64,000 nucleotides of DNA from a virus, in IMG/VR virus record IMGVR_UViG_3300028384_000673, positions 1-64,000 of that record, one strand, 5' to 3'. The position numbers and the translations under genes are program-made. Shown here piece after piece: positions 18,025 through 25,352 of this stretch (position 1 is the first letter of the stretch; each line of letters opens with the position of its first letter). A model generated the notes under the pieces. It ran no database searches. It had not been told where the DNA came from and was given only the letters and a program-made list of their open reading frames with translations.

Positions 18025-18488
18025 GCATCTTTACCGACATCAAAGATCTAGCAGGAGGGCAGAAGAAGTCTAAGGACTGGTATCGCTCTCAGGCGTTCTA
18101 TGGGTTCCAAGACTCCAAGGGATTTAATGTTGGAGATGTTATCTATTTTGCTTATACTGCCCAAACAGAGAGGTTACCTTTCTATGATCGGTATCCGATG
18201 GTATTGATAACTGACATCGATTTGCCCAATAAACAGTTCTCTGGTGGTAATTTACATTATCTGAGACCTAACGTTAGACGAAGTGTTGCTAAGAGTTGGG
18301 GTGGGGGATCTGTATCATATCCTATGAGATGCCATCATAAATACTTTATGTCAAATGCTAGTAATATTAAAACTGTGCCCGCCGTTGACTTATTAGATAT
18401 GACACCTTTGCCCTTAGAGCAATTCGTAACTGATGTTGCAGGTCGATTATTGGACACCCCGAGCAGTTTTATTTGGAGTAGAGTTTAA
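18021..18488 (+). CDS. Conserved protein of the baseplate block
   Basis: 155 residues between genes 4 and 54, overlapping both neighbours by one to four bases. KDWYRSQAFYGFQ, VGDVIYFAYTAQTERLPFYDRYPMVLITDI and PMRCHHKYFMSNASNI suggest a compact beta-rich domain with an SH3/OB-like start (GDVIYFAYTA). Not identified with a named T4 protein. Position argues for a baseplate or tail assembly role. Confidence 0.7.
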   Translation: MSIFTDIKDLAGGQKKSKDWYRSQAFYGFQDSKGFNVGDVIYFAYTAQTERLPFYDRYPMVLITDIDLPNKQFSGGNLHYLRPNVRRSVAKSWGGGSVSYPMRCHHKYFMSNASNIKTVPAVDLLDMTPLPLEQFVTDVAGRLLDTPSSFIWSRV

Positions 18489-19198
18489 TGGGAAATCCCA
18501 ATAGATTTCAGGATTTTAGGGAGCAGATTGCTACTAATCAACTCGCACCTGCTACTAGTAACCTCTTTGAGGTTCGTATTCCACCTCCGTCGATTATGGG
18601 AGATACTAATCTTTCCAGAAAGGCATCCAGTACCATTAACTATTTTGCTTCCACGGTCACTGTTCCTAGCAGAGCAATCACTACTGGCGAAATCAATAAT
18701 GTTGGTATGATGAGGAGGTTTGCCACTGGTCAGACGAACTCAGAAATTAGTATGTCATTCCTTGTCACCAAGGATCAGAGACATCGTAGATTCTTTGAGA
18801 AGTGGATGCACAGCGCAGCATCTGATTCTGATAACACGGTTGCATTCTATGATCAATATGTTGTTGACATGGAGATCATTAAGTGGGAAAATGGTGCTAA
18901 TTTTAGAGTTATAAAAAGAGAAGGAGATATAGGTTTATTCAACCCAGCACAATCCACTGCTGTATATAAGATCTTTGGTGCTTTTCCTACTAATATCAGC
19001 ACGATGCAGTTTGACAACGAACAAACTAGTCTAGTTCAGATGGACGTTCAGTTCTATTTTGAACGTTATAGAATGGATCAAGTATCTGCTGGTACTCTTA
19101 AATATGATGGAAGACCTCAGAAGACTATTCTGTGGGATGAACTTCCTGATAAGATTGCTGGATCTGGTAACCCAGACGTTCAGCGATTTAGTGTATAA
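18488..19198 (+). CDS. 54: Baseplate tail-tube initiator gp54
   Basis: 236 residues (T4 gp54 is 320). Tail-tube-like fold: SNLFEVRIPPPS, INYFASTVTVPSRAITTGEINNVGMMRRFATGQTNSEISMSFLVTKDQRHRRFFEKWM, then FGAFPTNISTMQFDNEQTSLVQMDVQFYFERYRM. This is the pattern of gp54 and gp19-like tube proteins, which start tail tube polymerisation on the gp48 ring. The late promoter of the next unit overlaps its stop. Confidence 0.8.
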   Translation: MGNPNRFQDFREQIATNQLAPATSNLFEVRIPPPSIMGDTNLSRKASSTINYFASTVTVPSRAITTGEINNVGMMRRFATGQTNSEISMSFLVTKDQRHRRFFEKWMHSAASDSDNTVAFYDQYVVDMEIIKWENGANFRVIKREGDIGLFNPAQSTAVYKIFGAFPTNISTMQFDNEQTSLVQMDVQFYFERYRMDQVSAGTLKYDGRPQKTILWDELPDKIAGSGNPDVQRFSV

Positions 19199-19223: not shown

Positions 19224-19925
19224 ATGCCTTTACCCAAACTTGCAGTGCCTGAATACGACTGCAAACTGCCTGTTAGTGGGCAGAAAGTCTCTTACCGTCC
19301 TTTTCTTGTAAAAGAAGAGAAACTGCTGTATCTCGCTATGGAGACACAGAAAGAGAAAGAGATGATCAAAGCGGTCAAGAATATCCTCAAAGCATGTACT
19401 GACCTCAAAAGTGTAGATTCACTTCCTACCTTTGAACTTGAATATCTGTTCTTGCAGATTCGTTCTAAGGCAGTTGGTGAGACTAGTGAATTCAAGATCG
19501 TCTGTCAAGATGATGGAGAAACTGAGGTTGAAATTGAACTGAACCTCAATGATATTGAAGTTCAGATTCCTAAGGATCATAAGAAGATCGTCGCTCTCAC
19601 TGATGAAGTGAAGATTCAAATGAAGTATCCTGCTCTGGATGCTTTCGTTGAGCGTAACATGACTGATGATCCCGACATCGAGGATGTCTTTGAACTTGCA
19701 GCATCATGTATCGATAAAGTATACGATGGTGATGAAATCTTTGACTCTTTCACTAAGAAAGAAGCAACTGACTTCATCGGTGAAATGAATAATGAACAGT
19801 TCGCCAAGATTCAAAAGTTCTTTGAAACTATGCCCAAACTGTCCCACACTATGGTAGTTACTAATCCCAAAACGGGAGTAGATAATGAAATCGTGTTGGA
19901 AGGACTGGCATCTTTTTTCGCATAG
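19224..19925 (+). CDS. 26: Baseplate hub/tail assembly protein gp26-like
   Basis: 233 residues (T4 gp26 is 208). LPKLAVPEYDCKLPVSGQKVSYRPFLVKEEKLLYLAM at the N-terminus is the hallmark of the T4 baseplate protein family that includes gp26. The middle is acidic, and the C-terminus is helical. The last codons read TCT TTT TTC GCA TAG, which contain the slippery heptamer T TTT TTC. A -1 slip there enters the frame of the next gene. In siphophages and other tailed phages the gene just before the tape measure is often a chaperone made in two forms this way. Confidence 0.8.
   Translation: MPLPKLAVPEYDCKLPVSGQKVSYRPFLVKEEKLLYLAMETQKEKEMIKAVKNILKACTDLKSVDSLPTFELEYLFLQIRSKAVGETSEFKIVCQDDGETEVEIELNLNDIEVQIPKDHKKIVALTDEVKIQMKYPALDAFVERNMTDDPDIEDVFELAASCIDKVYDGDEIFDSFTKKEATDFIGEMNNEQFAKIQKFFETMPKLSHTMVVTNPKTGVDNEIVLEGLASFFA
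19913..19919 (+). other. Candidate programmed -1 frameshift site (T TTT TTC)
   Basis: Heptamer in the X XXY YYZ register relative to the gene 26 frame, two codons before its stop. The -1 frame continues CGC ATA GCA TTG ATG with no stop into the 61-residue gene at 19931. A perfect 8-bp inverted repeat TAGTCTTA/TAAGACTA (19939-19946 and 19957-19964) lies 19 bases downstream; this spacing is longer than usual for a stimulator and the stem is AT-rich. Confidence 0.6.
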
Positions 19926-19930
19926 CATTG

Positions 19931-20116
19931 ATGCATGATAGTCTTATGAATCACTATAAGACTAACTTTGCATTAATGCAACATCATAAGTACAGTCTAA
20001 CTGAACTTAATGACATGATGCCTTGGGAACGTGACGTTTACGTCAACCTTTTGATTGCACACCTAGCAGAAGAAGAGAGACGTATGAACAAAAACGATAA
20101 CAGCGTACCACTCTAA
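19931..20116 (+). CDS. 51: gp51-like baseplate hub assembly protein / -1 extension of gp26
   Basis: 61 residues from ATG 19931. HYKTNFALMQHHKYSLTELNDMMPWERDVYVNLLIAHLAEEERRM resembles the small tail-assembly-chaperone extension (helical, with MPWERD) encoded right before tape-measure genes; cyanophage annotations call this position gp51. It lies in the -1 frame of gene 26, so it may be made alone from its ATG, as a gp26-51 fusion, or both. The stop overlaps the next ATG (TAATG). Confidence 0.6.
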   Translation: MHDSLMNHYKTNFALMQHHKYSLTELNDMMPWERDVYVNLLIAHLAEEERRMNKNDNSVPL

Positions 20117-22863
20117 TGGCAGCAACGCTTAGAAAATACCTTAGTGTAAAACCAACAAGCGGTAGTGGGTCTCTAAATGAGGCAGTAAAGACTATCACAG
20201 TCGCCCACAACCGACTTGGTGGTGCCATTACATATATGGGTCAGCAAGTTATTGACTTCAAAGAAGTCTTTAATATCCATAGAGATTTCACTCTGGATTA
20301 CTTCAAGAGTGAGCAAGAATTATTACAAAAAGAGCACGAATTTAAGCAAGAATTAATTGAGAAGAAGACCGATATTCTTGGTAGAAAGAAAGGACTAGAA
20401 CAGGATAAGAAAGCAGAAGAACAGCAAGAAAAAGTAACAGATAAGCAGGCAAAAGATCAAGGTAAGAAGTTAGCGAAGAAAGAGAAGAAGAAGTTTGGTT
20501 GGTTCAAAGCATTCTTTGATGGATTAAAACCAATATTTGAGGTTATCGCTCAATACGTAGCAATTTTTGCTGCTTACCAGTTTATGGACTGGTTGAGTGA
20601 TCCGAAGAATAAGAAAGCGATTGAGACGATCACACGTTTTGTTGGTGCGTTGTGGTCATTCAGCAGGAAACTTGCTGAATTTGGTATCAATAATGTCATG
20701 GATGGTATCACGAGAGTGTTTACCGATGATCCAACCAAAGAAGGCGTAGCAGAAGTCTTCGATGACATGTTTGGTGTTCTTCAAATCATTGGAGGACTTG
20801 CAGGACTGTGGGCAGCATCTCGTGTGCTGATGCCATGGAAACTGATTGGTGATGTGAAGTTCATGACCAGTCTTGGTCGTGCTGTTTCTGTTGCAGAAGA
20901 AACTGACGGTGGTGGCAAGAAAGGGAGACCCAAATCTAAACCAGATAAGAAACTCAAAGCAAAGAGACCCCAAGCAAAGACGAAGAAACCCAAAGCACCC
21001 AAAGTTAGTCCCAAAGGAAAGGGTGTATTTGGACGCACTTTTGATGGTCTGAGAAACTTTGGATCAAAAGCAAAGAGAAACATTTTTGCAGCAGGTAGTG
21101 CAGTTAAGAACGTCTCTGTTGGTGCAATCAATTTTATTGGAGACAAAGCAAGAGGTCTCTGGTCTGGTGCTAAGGAGTTTGCTGGATCTGCATGGAAGCA
21201 AGGTGAAAAGATTGCTAAATCTATCGGCAATCTTGCAGAACTCGCCAAAGATCCGAAGAAACTTGGACAAGTCGTAAAATCAAAATTAAAAGCATCCTTA
21301 CAAGGCGTCGTTGAAAAGAACGACACTATTAAGAAAATTAAGGATGTTGCCAAGAATCCGAAAGGGTCAGGTAAGAAGTTAATTGTTGACCTCTTCAAAG
21401 GTGCAATTAAGAATCCAGGATTTAAGAATTTCAGAGAGTTCTTGGGTGGTGTCAAGGCAAACTTCAAGATCGGTGGTATTGATACTGTTATCGCCGCTTT
21501 GCTGGGTTTGCTTGATTATGGTATGTTCGGTGAGTCACCTATCAACGCTATTGTTAATGCATTAGCAGGTCTGCTTGGGTATTCTGCTGGTTTTGCTATT
21601 GGTGCTCCCTTCGGTGGTGTCCCTGGTTTCATTACTGGTGCTGCTGGTGCATTTGCTGGTGAATGGATTGGTAACAAACTGTTGGAAGGTTTGGGTACAG
21701 CATTCCCAAATCTCTTAGAAATTGATGATCCTGTCGCCAAAATGATCGCTGAGAGTGGTGAAGGTGGATTCAATGAGATGTTCAAGAATCGCAAACTGCT
21801 GCGTGATCCTAGTACCGAAATGCCTGGGTTTGAGGAAGCAGCAGAACAAGAACTCGCCGCAGGTGGTTCGATTCATCCATATCTAACTAAAATGGATGAT
21901 CAGAATATCAAAAAAGCATATGCTCCAATAGGAAGGTGTGTTACAGGTAGTCTTGATACTATGTTGAAGAGTGGAGTTCCTGAACCCGCTGCTACTGGAA
22001 ATGATGTTGGTAACAATCCCCGAGGTGCAATTTCTCAGTTGATGCAAGCACCTTTTAACTGGAAGAGCATGGGTGGCGCTTCTAAGACACTTAATAGTCC
22101 ATATGGTACTGTTCAAGCAGGTGTTTATACTAAGAATCAGTATGGAGAATTAGTAAATAGCGGTAAAGTTCCTTCTGGTGCATTAGTATTCCAGTCTAGG
22201 TATAACGATTGGAACGGAACTGCTAAGAATAGTAGTGGTTATGATATGGCGATTGCTCAGAAAGGTGGTAAAGAGCACTGGAATGGGCAAAAGATGCCAC
22301 AATATGTTTATGGTGGTTCAACTAAAAAGATTATTGTTTTGACTCCAAATGGCAAGAAAGGAGATGGTAAATCTGCACCTATAATCGGTAAGGATGAATC
22401 GACGAGTGATCAAATTACACCAGGTGAGGCACCATCTGGTACTGATTATGCTACTGGACTTACGGGAGTAGAATCTCCATCAGTAGCAGGTGAAACTACA
22501 CCCCAACCACCTAGCAAACCGATGACTGCCATGGAGGCATTTCAGTCGGTTGGTGGATTGGATATGCTCAATTCATTCCTGGGTGATATTGGAGGATCCG
22601 ATTTAGGTCGGAGTGGTTTTGGCACAAGTCCCAGTCCCAGTCCCGTTGCTACACCTACGGAGATAAAGCAAGAGGAATCCCTAATAAATACCAAGAGTAG
22701 TCAACTTGCAACAGCATCAGCAGATAAGGTGAGAAGAGATAAGCAACAAGGTCAAGCAAATACTGCTGTTCTGATGTATAGACAACAGATTGGTGTCCCT
22801 GGTCCACCAGGAACACAAGTTGTTAAGTCATCTCCTTCACCATCACCTTTGGTTATTAAGTAA
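20116..22863 (+). CDS. Tape-measure-like tail/hub protein 1 (possible C-terminal cysteine hydrolase)
   Basis: 915 residues. The N-terminus is helical and coiled-coil (FTLDYFKSEQELLQKEHEFKQELIEKK, then a KK/EE-rich stretch, residues 60-140). AYQFMDWLSDPKNKKAIETITRF (155-180) is shared with the next protein. A Lys/Pro-rich linker (about 270-315) and a Gly/Ala-rich hydrophobic region (about 455-535) follow, as in tape measures. Residues about 605-735 (GRCVTGSLDTMLKSG, SGALVFQSRYNDW, SSGYDMAIAQKGG) loosely resemble a CHAP/NlpC-type hydrolase, but the usual His is not evident. KPMTAMEAFQSVGGLDML near the C-terminus recurs in the next protein. It is probably the tape measure or a hub protein equivalent in place to gp29. 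Confidence 0.65.
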   Translation: MAATLRKYLSVKPTSGSGSLNEAVKTITVAHNRLGGAITYMGQQVIDFKEVFNIHRDFTLDYFKSEQELLQKEHEFKQELIEKKTDILGRKKGLEQDKKAEEQQEKVTDKQAKDQGKKLAKKEKKKFGWFKAFFDGLKPIFEVIAQYVAIFAAYQFMDWLSDPKNKKAIETITRFVGALWSFSRKLAEFGINNVMDGITRVFTDDPTKEGVAEVFDDMFGVLQIIGGLAGLWAASRVLMPWKLIGDVKFMTSLGRAVSVAEETDGGGKKGRPKSKPDKKLKAKRPQAKTKKPKAPKVSPKGKGVFGRTFDGLRNFGSKAKRNIFAAGSAVKNVSVGAINFIGDKARGLWSGAKEFAGSAWKQGEKIAKSIGNLAELAKDPKKLGQVVKSKLKASLQGVVEKNDTIKKIKDVAKNPKGSGKKLIVDLFKGAIKNPGFKNFREFLGGVKANFKIGGIDTVIAALLGLLDYGMFGESPINAIVNALAGLLGYSAGFAIGAPFGGVPGFITGAAGAFAGEWIGNKLLEGLGTAFPNLLEIDDPVAKMIAESGEGGFNEMFKNRKLLRDPSTEMPGFEEAAEQELAAGGSIHPYLTKMDDQNIKKAYAPIGRCVTGSLDTMLKSGVPEPAATGNDVGNNPRGAISQLMQAPFNWKSMGGASKTLNSPYGTVQAGVYTKNQYGELVNSGKVPSGALVFQSRYNDWNGTAKNSSGYDMAIAQKGGKEHWNGQKMPQYVYGGSTKKIIVLTPNGKKGDGKSAPIIGKDESTSDQITPGEAPSGTDYATGLTGVESPSVAGETTPQPPSKPMTAMEAFQSVGGLDMLNSFLGDIGGSDLGRSGFGTSPSPSPVATPTEIKQEESLINTKSSQLATASADKVRRDKQQGQANTAVLMYRQQIGVPGPPGTQVVKSSPSPSPLVIK

Positions 22864-25352
22864 TGGCACAGGCAAGACTATATAAAATGATCACACCTCC
22901 CAAACTCAGTGGAAGGGGAGGAGGAATCACTGTAAAGATTGGTGGTAAGACTGTCACATCTCCTGCTGACGGATTTAGAAAGAATGTATCGGCAATCAAT
23001 AGTCTTGGTGCAACTATCAATAGTATTGCTATTGTCCTAGAAGAACTCAAAGAGTCTTTTGCTAGTTACACTTTCCAGCACATGAGTTTGTTGGAAAGTA
23101 TCAGAGACATGAGAGAGGATCACCTCTTGGATGAGAAGACTCGTCTTAAAAATGTCGAAAAAGAGGAAAGAAGAGAAGAAGGACTACGACAAGACACACA
23201 AGCAGAGGAGAAGCAAGAAAAGATAAAACCAAAGAACAATAGTGTCATTAATGGTGCTAAGGCAGTAGCAAAGACCTCTCTGGGTTTCTTTGAAGCATTA
23301 GCATCATTGTTTGACGGTATCTTCAAATCTCTGGTGGTCTACCAGTTGATGGATTGGTTGGGAAAGAAAGAAAATAGAAAGAAAGTTGAACGATTATTAA
23401 GCACCATCAAAACGATGGTAAAGTGGTTTGCTGAGAAGGCAGCATTTGTAATTAGTTTTGGATTAGAAGGTCTGACTGATTTTCTTGAAAATCCACTAAG
23501 TTTTGAAGGTATATTTGGTTTAGTTAAATTCCTCGGTGTTCTGGGTGCAGTATTTGCCCCAGTTGCCATGATAAAACTGGGTCTCCTTGGTGCTGGTGGT
23601 GTTTTAACACTATTCCGCAAGGGTGGACTATTCAAGGCAATTAAAGGTCTCTTCCGAGGTATTGGGGGAATGATCAAGGGTCTTATAGGATTTGTTAAAG
23701 GCAGAGGACTTGGTGGTCTTCTGGTAGGTGCAGCAGTGCTTGGTGCTGGTGTTGGTCTTAGTTATATGCTTGGATCGAATGAAGAAGAAGAAGAAGATCT
23801 CGAACCTGACACAGAAGAACCTGCCACACCGATGTCGAAGGGCGGTAAAATTCCAGAACTGGCAAAGGGTGGTTGGATTACTGGTCCTCAGTCTGGATAT
23901 CCCGTGTCTCTGGATGGTGGAAAGTCCACGTCATTCATTGGTCATGGAACTGAATATGTTGCAACTAGATCTGCTGGTGGTGGACTAGGTGCAGGATTCG
24001 TTGTACCATTTGATACTCCTGCAACTAAAAAAGATCCTGGTTTGACTTCACGTCGTATCGGTGAAGCAACTGGTAAAGGATTTAGTTTACCTAAGTTCGC
24101 TAGTGGCGGTGAAGCAACTGGTAAAGGTAAAGGATTTAGTTTACCTAAGTTCGCCAGCGGTGGTGAAGCAACTGGTAAAGGATTTAGTTTACCTAAGTTC
24201 GCCAGCGGTGGTGATATGGACTTCTTGGGCAATCTGTCTCGTGCCATGGGTGGCATGTTGCAGACGTTTAGACCTCCCGAGTATGCTGCTGGTGGTCTCC
24301 TTGATTTCATCGCATCTGGTGAAGGTGGATATAACTCCATGAATCAGGGTACGATTGGTAATAGTATTGTTGGTTCTACTCACGATTCTTCTTCCATTAT
24401 TGGTAAGAAACTCACCGACATGACAGTTAGTGAAATTATAAAGCGTCAGGATTATCTGATGAATCCTTCCAATCCACAAAAGAGTAACTATGGTGCTTTT
24501 GCTGTGGGTCGCTATCAGGTTATTCCTGGTACTATGAAGACCATCGTGAAGCAGATGGGTATTGATAAGAACCAGAAGTTTGATAAGAAACTCCAAGATA
24601 AGATTGGTATGGGATTGATCCAATACAAGAGACCTTACGCTTGGGATTATATCAAAGGAAAGCATAATGATAGAGCAGGTGCTATGAAGGCACTTGCAGC
24701 AGAGTGGGCGTCTCTACCTGATCCTGCAACAGGTAAATCCATGTATGGAGGTGGCAATGCATCCTCACATACTGTTGGTGAGGTTGCTGCCGCTCTGGAC
24801 GCTGCTAGGGGCGGTGCTCCGATGGTCTCTGATGATCCTAATATGAATCTAGCATCAGCATCACCTTCTGCTGGGGGTGCTACTGCTCTTGCTGGTGCTA
24901 CTGCTCCTGGTGGTGCTACTGCTCCTGCTGGTGCTGCTGGTTCCCCAAGTGCAAGTGCTCCGCCACCTGCACCTATGTCTACTGAGGACGCTATTGCTAG
25001 TGCTCAACCTAAAAAACCCATGACTGCCGCAGAGGCATTCCAACAAATGGGTGGTGTAGATCTTCTGAATCAATATCTTGCCGATATTGGTGGGATGGAT
25101 AAGAATAACTCTGGTGAGAAACTTAGTCAAGCAGAATTAAAAGAGAAAGAAAAACAAGCAGAGGGTGGTGCTGGCGGCAAAGTAAGTGTCCAAGCAACAG
25201 ATCTTCCTCCTGTTCAACCACCAGTTATAGAACCTCCACCGCCAGTTGCAGCAGGTGGTTCTGGTGAATACATAGTTCCAGCAAATGAATATCTGCAACC
25301 TCGTTTTGGTTTATTCTCTGACCTATCATCTACTGCTCGTGAATTAACATGA
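22863..25352 (+). CDS. Tape-measure-like tail/hub protein 2 with muramidase-like domain
   Basis: 829 residues, a paralogue of the preceding protein: YQLMDWLGKKENRKKVERLL near residues 160-180 and KPMTAAEAFQQMGGVDLL near the C-terminus match its neighbour. A hydrophobic Gly-rich segment (about 225-305) follows. Three tandem copies of EATGKGFSLPKFASGG come next. Residues about 480-635 look like a phage muramidase: FIASGEGGYNSMNQGTIG, LTDMTVSEIIKRQ, GAFAVGRYQVIPGTMKTIVKQMG, with Glu487 as candidate acid. The C-terminus is Pro/Ala-rich. It probably opens peptidoglycan during DNA entry, replacing the lysozyme that T4 has in gp5. Confidence 0.7.
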   Translation: MAQARLYKMITPPKLSGRGGGITVKIGGKTVTSPADGFRKNVSAINSLGATINSIAIVLEELKESFASYTFQHMSLLESIRDMREDHLLDEKTRLKNVEKEERREEGLRQDTQAEEKQEKIKPKNNSVINGAKAVAKTSLGFFEALASLFDGIFKSLVVYQLMDWLGKKENRKKVERLLSTIKTMVKWFAEKAAFVISFGLEGLTDFLENPLSFEGIFGLVKFLGVLGAVFAPVAMIKLGLLGAGGVLTLFRKGGLFKAIKGLFRGIGGMIKGLIGFVKGRGLGGLLVGAAVLGAGVGLSYMLGSNEEEEEDLEPDTEEPATPMSKGGKIPELAKGGWITGPQSGYPVSLDGGKSTSFIGHGTEYVATRSAGGGLGAGFVVPFDTPATKKDPGLTSRRIGEATGKGFSLPKFASGGEATGKGKGFSLPKFASGGEATGKGFSLPKFASGGDMDFLGNLSRAMGGMLQTFRPPEYAAGGLLDFIASGEGGYNSMNQGTIGNSIVGSTHDSSSIIGKKLTDMTVSEIIKRQDYLMNPSNPQKSNYGAFAVGRYQVIPGTMKTIVKQMGIDKNQKFDKKLQDKIGMGLIQYKRPYAWDYIKGKHNDRAGAMKALAAEWASLPDPATGKSMYGGGNASSHTVGEVAAALDAARGGAPMVSDDPNMNLASASPSAGGATALAGATAPGGATAPAGAAGSPSASAPPPAPMSTEDAIASAQPKKPMTAAEAFQQMGGVDLLNQYLADIGGMDKNNSGEKLSQAELKEKEKQAEGGAGGKVSVQATDLPPVQPPVIEPPPPVAAGGSGEYIVPANEYLQPRFGLFSDLSSTARELT
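24060..24209 (+). repeat. In-frame tandem repeat in muramidase-like tail gene
   Basis: Three near-identical 48-54-bp units (starts about 24060, 24108, 24162), each coding EATGKGFSLPKFASGG; the middle copy has two extra codons (GK). The DNA identity is high, so copy number could change by slippage without breaking the frame. Confidence 0.8.

Follow-up and report, generated by a model that had tools for sequence, protein, structure and literature searches.

The window, i.e., the whole stretch of viral DNA analysed here (64,000 nt), contains a tail-tube-like gene (18488-19198; phrog_45, 8.7e-44), followed by gene 26, a short reading frame conventionally annotated as gene 51 and a large tape-measure-like gene (Table 1). 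The product of gene 26 matched PF12322 (T4_baseplate, 4.7e-72) and phrog_150 (3.8e-77). By direct reading, bases 19908-19925 are GCA TCT TTT TTC GCA TAG, preceded by GAA GGA CTG and followed by CAT TGA TGC. As claimed in a preliminary description of this DNA, T TTT TTC stands here in the -1 register. It is an in-register heptamer of the X XXY YYZ type, with the zero-frame codons TTT (19914-19916) for the P-site and TTC (19917-19919) for the A-site, and it lies one codon upstream of the gene 26 stop TAG (19923-19925). Both tRNA sites would be able to re-pair on TTT TTT after a -1 slip.

The first codon after a simultaneous -1 slip would be CGC at 19919. The -1 frame, which reads FFRIALMHDSL..., is open until TAA at 20114-20116, and the statement of the same description that it runs without a stop into the 61-residue gene at 19931 was borne out. 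The extension encoded by this frame matched phrog_634 (1.6e-27), and its stop is overlapped by the start of the next gene at 20116. The predicted gp26-gp51 fusion comprises 232 + 65 = 297 aa and includes two predicted fusion-specific peptides, namely TGVDNEIVLEGLASFFR, which ends in Arg and not in the C-terminal FFA, and IALMHDSLMNHYK, which includes residues upstream of the gp51 ATG.

Table 1. Coordinates of the genes and features at the junction of genes 26 and 51 in the window.
Feature	Position	Strand	Basis or remark
Gene 26, short form of the putative tail assembly chaperone (TAC-N, lambda gpG-like), 233 aa	19224..19925	+	PF12322, phrog_150
AAGGA, Shine-Dalgarno-like	19900..19904	+	8 nt upstream of heptamer; possible stimulator, weak
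Slippery heptamer T TTT TTC	19913..19919	+	-1 register; direct reading and conservation in relatives
-1 frame extension, 65 codons (putative TAC-NC, lambda gpGT-like)	19919..20116	+	Reading frame; phrog_634; alignment with T4 gp51
Predicted stimulatory stem-loop	19925..19979	+	Folding; z values in near clade; spacing peak; modest covariation
Gene 51 as conventionally annotated, 61 aa from ATG	19931..20116	+	Probably not a separate gene
Tape-measure-like gene, 915 aa, presumed chaperone client	20116..22863	+	Position and length

The gene pair lies just before the tape-measure-like gene, as had been described, and this downstream gene was assigned by position and length; its product gave PHROG matches to large phage proteins, mostly of unknown function. 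The pair is located after the tail-tube-like gene and, on this assignment, before the tape measure gene. The products of 20116-22863 and 22863-25352 show 27% identity along 211 residues (1e-15) and have a PKPMTAxEAFQ motif in common (64% over 36 residues); the two genes are paralogues, and we read them as encoding two tandem tape-measure-like proteins. Several relatives of these proteins are labelled 'endolysin' in PHROG.

Taken by itself, the window does not set this junction apart from chance. The frequency of in-frame X XXY YYZ heptamers in it is 0.0012 per codon, and about one slippery heptamer is expected in the last 10 codons of its 84 ORFs; two were found, the other of which sits in a spurious ORF. 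Since chance was not excludable from a single window, relatives were used for comparison, and it is conservation among them that exceeds chance. The string TTTTTTC is somewhat avoided across the whole window, with 8 occurrences vs 14.25 expected (this number was reached or exceeded in 96 of 100 shuffles).

Using gp26, 80 loci with 50-87% identity were found in viral contigs in the first round. All 80 carry T TTT TTC in an identical register, with a single codon between it and TAG, and in all of them the -1 frame runs into gp51. The full comparison covered 263 loci, including those of distant phages, which gave 153 distinct junctions. An in-frame T TTT TTN is kept in 152 of these, and the proposal of the preliminary description, which had been made to depend on the heptamer being conserved in relatives that keep both genes, withstood this comparison. 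The lineages with the heptamer include Kyanoviridae, Eurybiavirus and phages of Vibrio, Aeromonas, Rhizobium, Agrobacterium, Sinorhizobium, Stenotrophomonas and Delftia. The last base of the heptamer is C in 139, A in 8, G in 3 and T in 2 of the 152 junctions, and the preceding codon is variable (AGT, GAT, GCT, AAT, TCT, ACT, CGT), with T always as its third base. When 58 distinct near relatives were aligned by codon, TTT and TTC proved fixed in all sequences with zero synonymous change, the mean synonymous-difference fraction over conserved columns being 0.44. The codon after the heptamer starts with G in 58 of 58 near relatives and encodes Ala, Gly, Glu or Asp, so that Arg (CGN) is retained in the -1 frame. 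The sole junction without a slippery heptamer belongs to Vibrio phage K369 (L090, 2540-2600), which has TCA CTT TTC AAG TAATG at this place. Its gp51-like -1 frame is still open, and the overlap of an ATG with the gp26 stop suggests a switch to coupled translation.

PF12322 was found in both T4 gp26 (8.8e-64) and T4 gp51 (3.9e-52), and T4 gp51 ends in a gp51 domain (phrog_634, 1.2e-23). From the junction Phe, the product of the -1 frame is collinear with residues 200-244 of T4 gp51 (2e-5), with FRIALM.. aligned to FKLLVN.., so the alignment covers residues before the supposed gp51 ATG. The PF12322 domain together with the gp51 C-terminal domain places the proteins in the T4 gp26/gp51 family, and T4 gp51 is the in-frame equivalent of the predicted gp26-gp51 frameshift fusion. 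The two systems are alike in that the proteins are homologous and the gp26 domain is present in both forms, whereas they differ in that T4 has two divergently transcribed genes without a slip site and the cyanophage has one gene with a putative frameshift. T TTT TTN is absent from nine T4-type gp26 genes, and those phages have a separate fused gp51; the counterpart sequence in T4 gp26 is GAG TTC TTT GAG. Only one PF12322 gene is present in the 111,559-base record from which the window comes. By this comparison, T4 produces the same two forms from a pair of genes and, with regard to the slip site, is a natural negative control.

In the phylogenetic tree, frameshifting gp26, T4-type gp26 and T4-type gp51 each fall on one side of a branch; the tree has long branches and no reliable root and does not show the ancestral arrangement. 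In one public viral contig (L100, 2501-3246), a T4-type gp51 is split over two frames, which is probably an assembly or sequencing error.

A stem-loop was predicted downstream of the heptamer, with an outer stem at 19925-19935/19969-19979 and an inner stem at 19939-19948/19955-19964. It rests on the G of the TAG stop, which gives a spacing of 5 nt from the heptamer, and its folding energy is -26.1 kcal/mol (z -5.2; none of 200 shuffles folded as well). The 8-bp hairpin noted earlier (19940-19947/19956-19963) is present, but it is the tip of this larger structure, and its allegedly unusual distance of 19 bases gives way to the canonical spacing of the full stem-loop, which replaces the hairpin as the candidate stimulator. 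The near clade keeps the stem-loop, with z mostly about -4.8 to -6.8 and weaker cases to -2.6. Three stem pairs are changed on both sides and the covariation score is above all 500 shuffles, which, given closely related and coding sequences, lends the stem-loop modest support. In 39 representatives at <80% identity, helices of at least 5 bp starting at spacer 5 had a mean probability of 0.155 vs 0.031 in shuffles (15 shuffle sets, maximum 0.109). Other lineages have unrelated hairpins at 5-nt spacing, e.g., GCCCTC...GAGGGC in the P-HM1 clade. The stem-loop is missing from many lineages, with none in L040-L080, for instance; a universal stimulatory structure was rejected for this reason, and the structure is optional. 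A structure 5-9 nt downstream of the heptamer was predicted for the window (at 5 nt) as well as for several, though not all, lineages.

Both arms of the outer stem encode Ala-Leu-Met, which makes it nearly palindromic (GCATTAATGC). TAG is the stop in 137 of the 153 junctions, and the role of the stop-codon G as the base of the stem may contribute to this preference. As for the Shine-Dalgarno-like AAGGA upstream of the heptamer, it is encoded by conserved Glu-Gly codons, and the amino-acid constraint accounts for it equally well. A similar string, AGAGG, persists in T4 gp26 though the slip site is lacking there. AAGGA was not separable from Glu-Gly conservation and is kept as a weakly supported possible stimulator.

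Based on the above results, we consider programmed -1 ribosomal frameshifting at the junction highly probable, with both tail assembly chaperones being made from one gene. According to the annotation in database records, gp51 begins at a start codon, and in many cyanophage genomes it is listed separately or missed entirely (e.g., S-WAM1, S-CAM7). In an alternative reading, gp51 is an ordinary gene of its own whose translation begins at ATG 19931 after the stop of gene 26 (coupling or reinitiation), and the T run is incidental. This reading would agree with the annotation, with the presence of the ATG in the window and the near clade and with the overlap of the gp26 stop and a gp51-frame ATG (TGATG or TAATG) in several distant relatives. 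However, the gp51 ATG is not conserved across relatives. For 79 of the 152 junctions, the -1 frame has its first ATG only after codon 15, within the conserved core, and 66 junctions have no earlier ATG, GTG or TTG. Since about half of the gp51 frames have no ATG in the first 15 codons, the fusion would be the sole simple route to the full domain. Furthermore, the residues FRIAL preceding the ATG are conserved as well as collinear with T4 gp51, and a separate gp51 leaves unexplained both the invariant heptamer and its absence in T4-type phages. No Shine-Dalgarno-like sequence was found upstream of ATG 19931, and among 56 near-relative junctions only 2 have one ahead of the first ATG; this argument is weakened by the start of gene 26, which is likewise without an obvious Shine-Dalgarno sequence. 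Taken together, this evidence makes a separate gp51 in place of the fusion very improbable. In distant phages with an ATG overlapping the gp26 stop, an extra separate gp51 may exist.

The run of six T could also be a place where RNA polymerase, and not the ribosome, slips to produce a shifted mRNA. Six T is short for bacterial transcriptional slippage, however, and the strict codon register, the A/C/G/T variants of the last base and the hairpin at 5 nt better fit ribosomal tandem slippage, so that slippage of the polymerase is very improbable. Even less credible is the retention of T TTT TTC solely because the end of gp26 needs a Phe-Phe motif. Phe-Phe is indeed conserved and is also kept by T4 gp26, but T4 encodes it as TTC TTT, and in relatives with A or G as the last heptamer base the second residue switches from Phe to Leu while T6 is kept, which indicates that the string and not the residue is under conservation. 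In addition, TTT and TTC are mixed in all of the eight other conserved Phe columns of the 58 near relatives, and none of the 153 junctions combines free TTC TTC or TTC TTT coding with the presence of both genes. The heptamer is therefore conserved beyond protein constraint.

We suggest the following scheme for programmed frameshifting in this phage. Most ribosomes would stop at 19923 and release gp26 as the short form, while a presumed minority would shift by -1 on T TTT TTC, with the stem-loop assisting in this clade, and continue to the end of the gp26-gp51 fusion as the long form. The earlier proposal that both gp26 and the fusion are made is supported by the heptamer counts, the gp51 frames without a nearby start and the position of the genes. 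The short and long forms share the N-terminal domain, as read from the reading frame here and from two genes in T4. Based on the gene order and the analogy with lambda, the gp26 forms are read as putative chaperones of the downstream tape-measure-like protein. Following the lambda gpG/gpGT model, the role of gp26 may be to coat the tape measure protein and that of the gp51 portion of the fusion to recruit tail tube subunits, and presumably neither protein stays in the virion. In T4, gp51 is an essential protein that the virion does not contain, and gp26 as well as gp51 is listed among the hub assembly chaperones (PMC3004832).

Judging from sequence features, the cyanophage junction is probably a tail-assembly-chaperone frameshift of the lambda G/GT type, a kind already known in other phages. 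Lambda gpG/gpGT, P2 E/E+E', Mu and others correspond to the predicted cyanophage case in that the ribosome slips by -1 shortly before the short gene ends, the long form is minor and the gene pair is placed directly after the tail tube gene and ahead of the tape measure gene. P2 uses T TTT TTG, and this slip site also occurs among the relatives of the gp26 studied here. Unlike these features, the proteins themselves showed no sequence similarity to the lambda, P2 and Mu chaperones in our analysis. The AlphaFold2 model of gp26 (pLDDT 82) gave no significant match in a PDB fold search, and its similarity to HK97 gp13 was weak (chaperone structure 2ob9, probability 0.14-0.21, E about 2). The model of a T4-type gp51 also had no significant match in the PDB, and 2ob9 was not among the matches listed. 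A viral fold search returned gp26-type phage baseplate-hub proteins and unnamed phage proteins. A scan for distant relatives with the Ahp1 protein found none, and that with the AF3 protein found one locus. Phage Adele and the Vandenendeviridae/Andersonviridae resemble our case in that the chaperone gene of a myovirus carries a conserved slip signal of the poly-T type, followed by a -1 extension that had been overlooked, whereas their motif is GTTTTT and they belong to other phage families (PMC12846349).

In a 2016 review, the G-T frameshift was described as widespread, with T4 listed as an exception (PMC5009743). A 2010 comparison noted that cyanophage gp51 has about 20% of the length of T4 gp51, with ~200 N-terminal residues missing, and also covered the shortness of vibriophage gp51, with no frameshift mentioned (PMC3037559). 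The preliminary description knew of no account of such a frameshift in T4-like cyanophages, and this did not hold. Vladimirov et al. 2022 (Virology 566:9-15) is cited in PMC10885494 for the combination of one short gene with one long fusion gene in some T4-like phages; in PMC12846349 it is the reference for T4-like TAC-N genes with poly-T slip signals. Judging from these citations, the T4-like chaperone genes, poly-T slip sites included, had apparently already been named in that work. Our literature search, in which Vladimirov et al. 2022 was represented by citations of it, found no paper describing the frameshift in cyanophages.

More tentatively, it is conceivable that the T4 superfamily has two interchangeable routes to the chaperone pair: either a near-universal poly-T frameshift with lineage-specific hairpins at 5 nt that have arisen repeatedly, or duplicated genes of the T-even type, with gp51 as an in-frame fusion and no slip site left. 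Frameshifting would account for the short gp51 of cyanophages and vibriophages, the absent part being supplied by gp26, and would resolve the T4 'exception', with T4 producing both forms via two genes. Many cyanophage annotations would then need correcting at gp51. Furthermore, it becomes possible to test the chaperone ratio, and through it perhaps tail assembly, in one of the major groups of marine phages.
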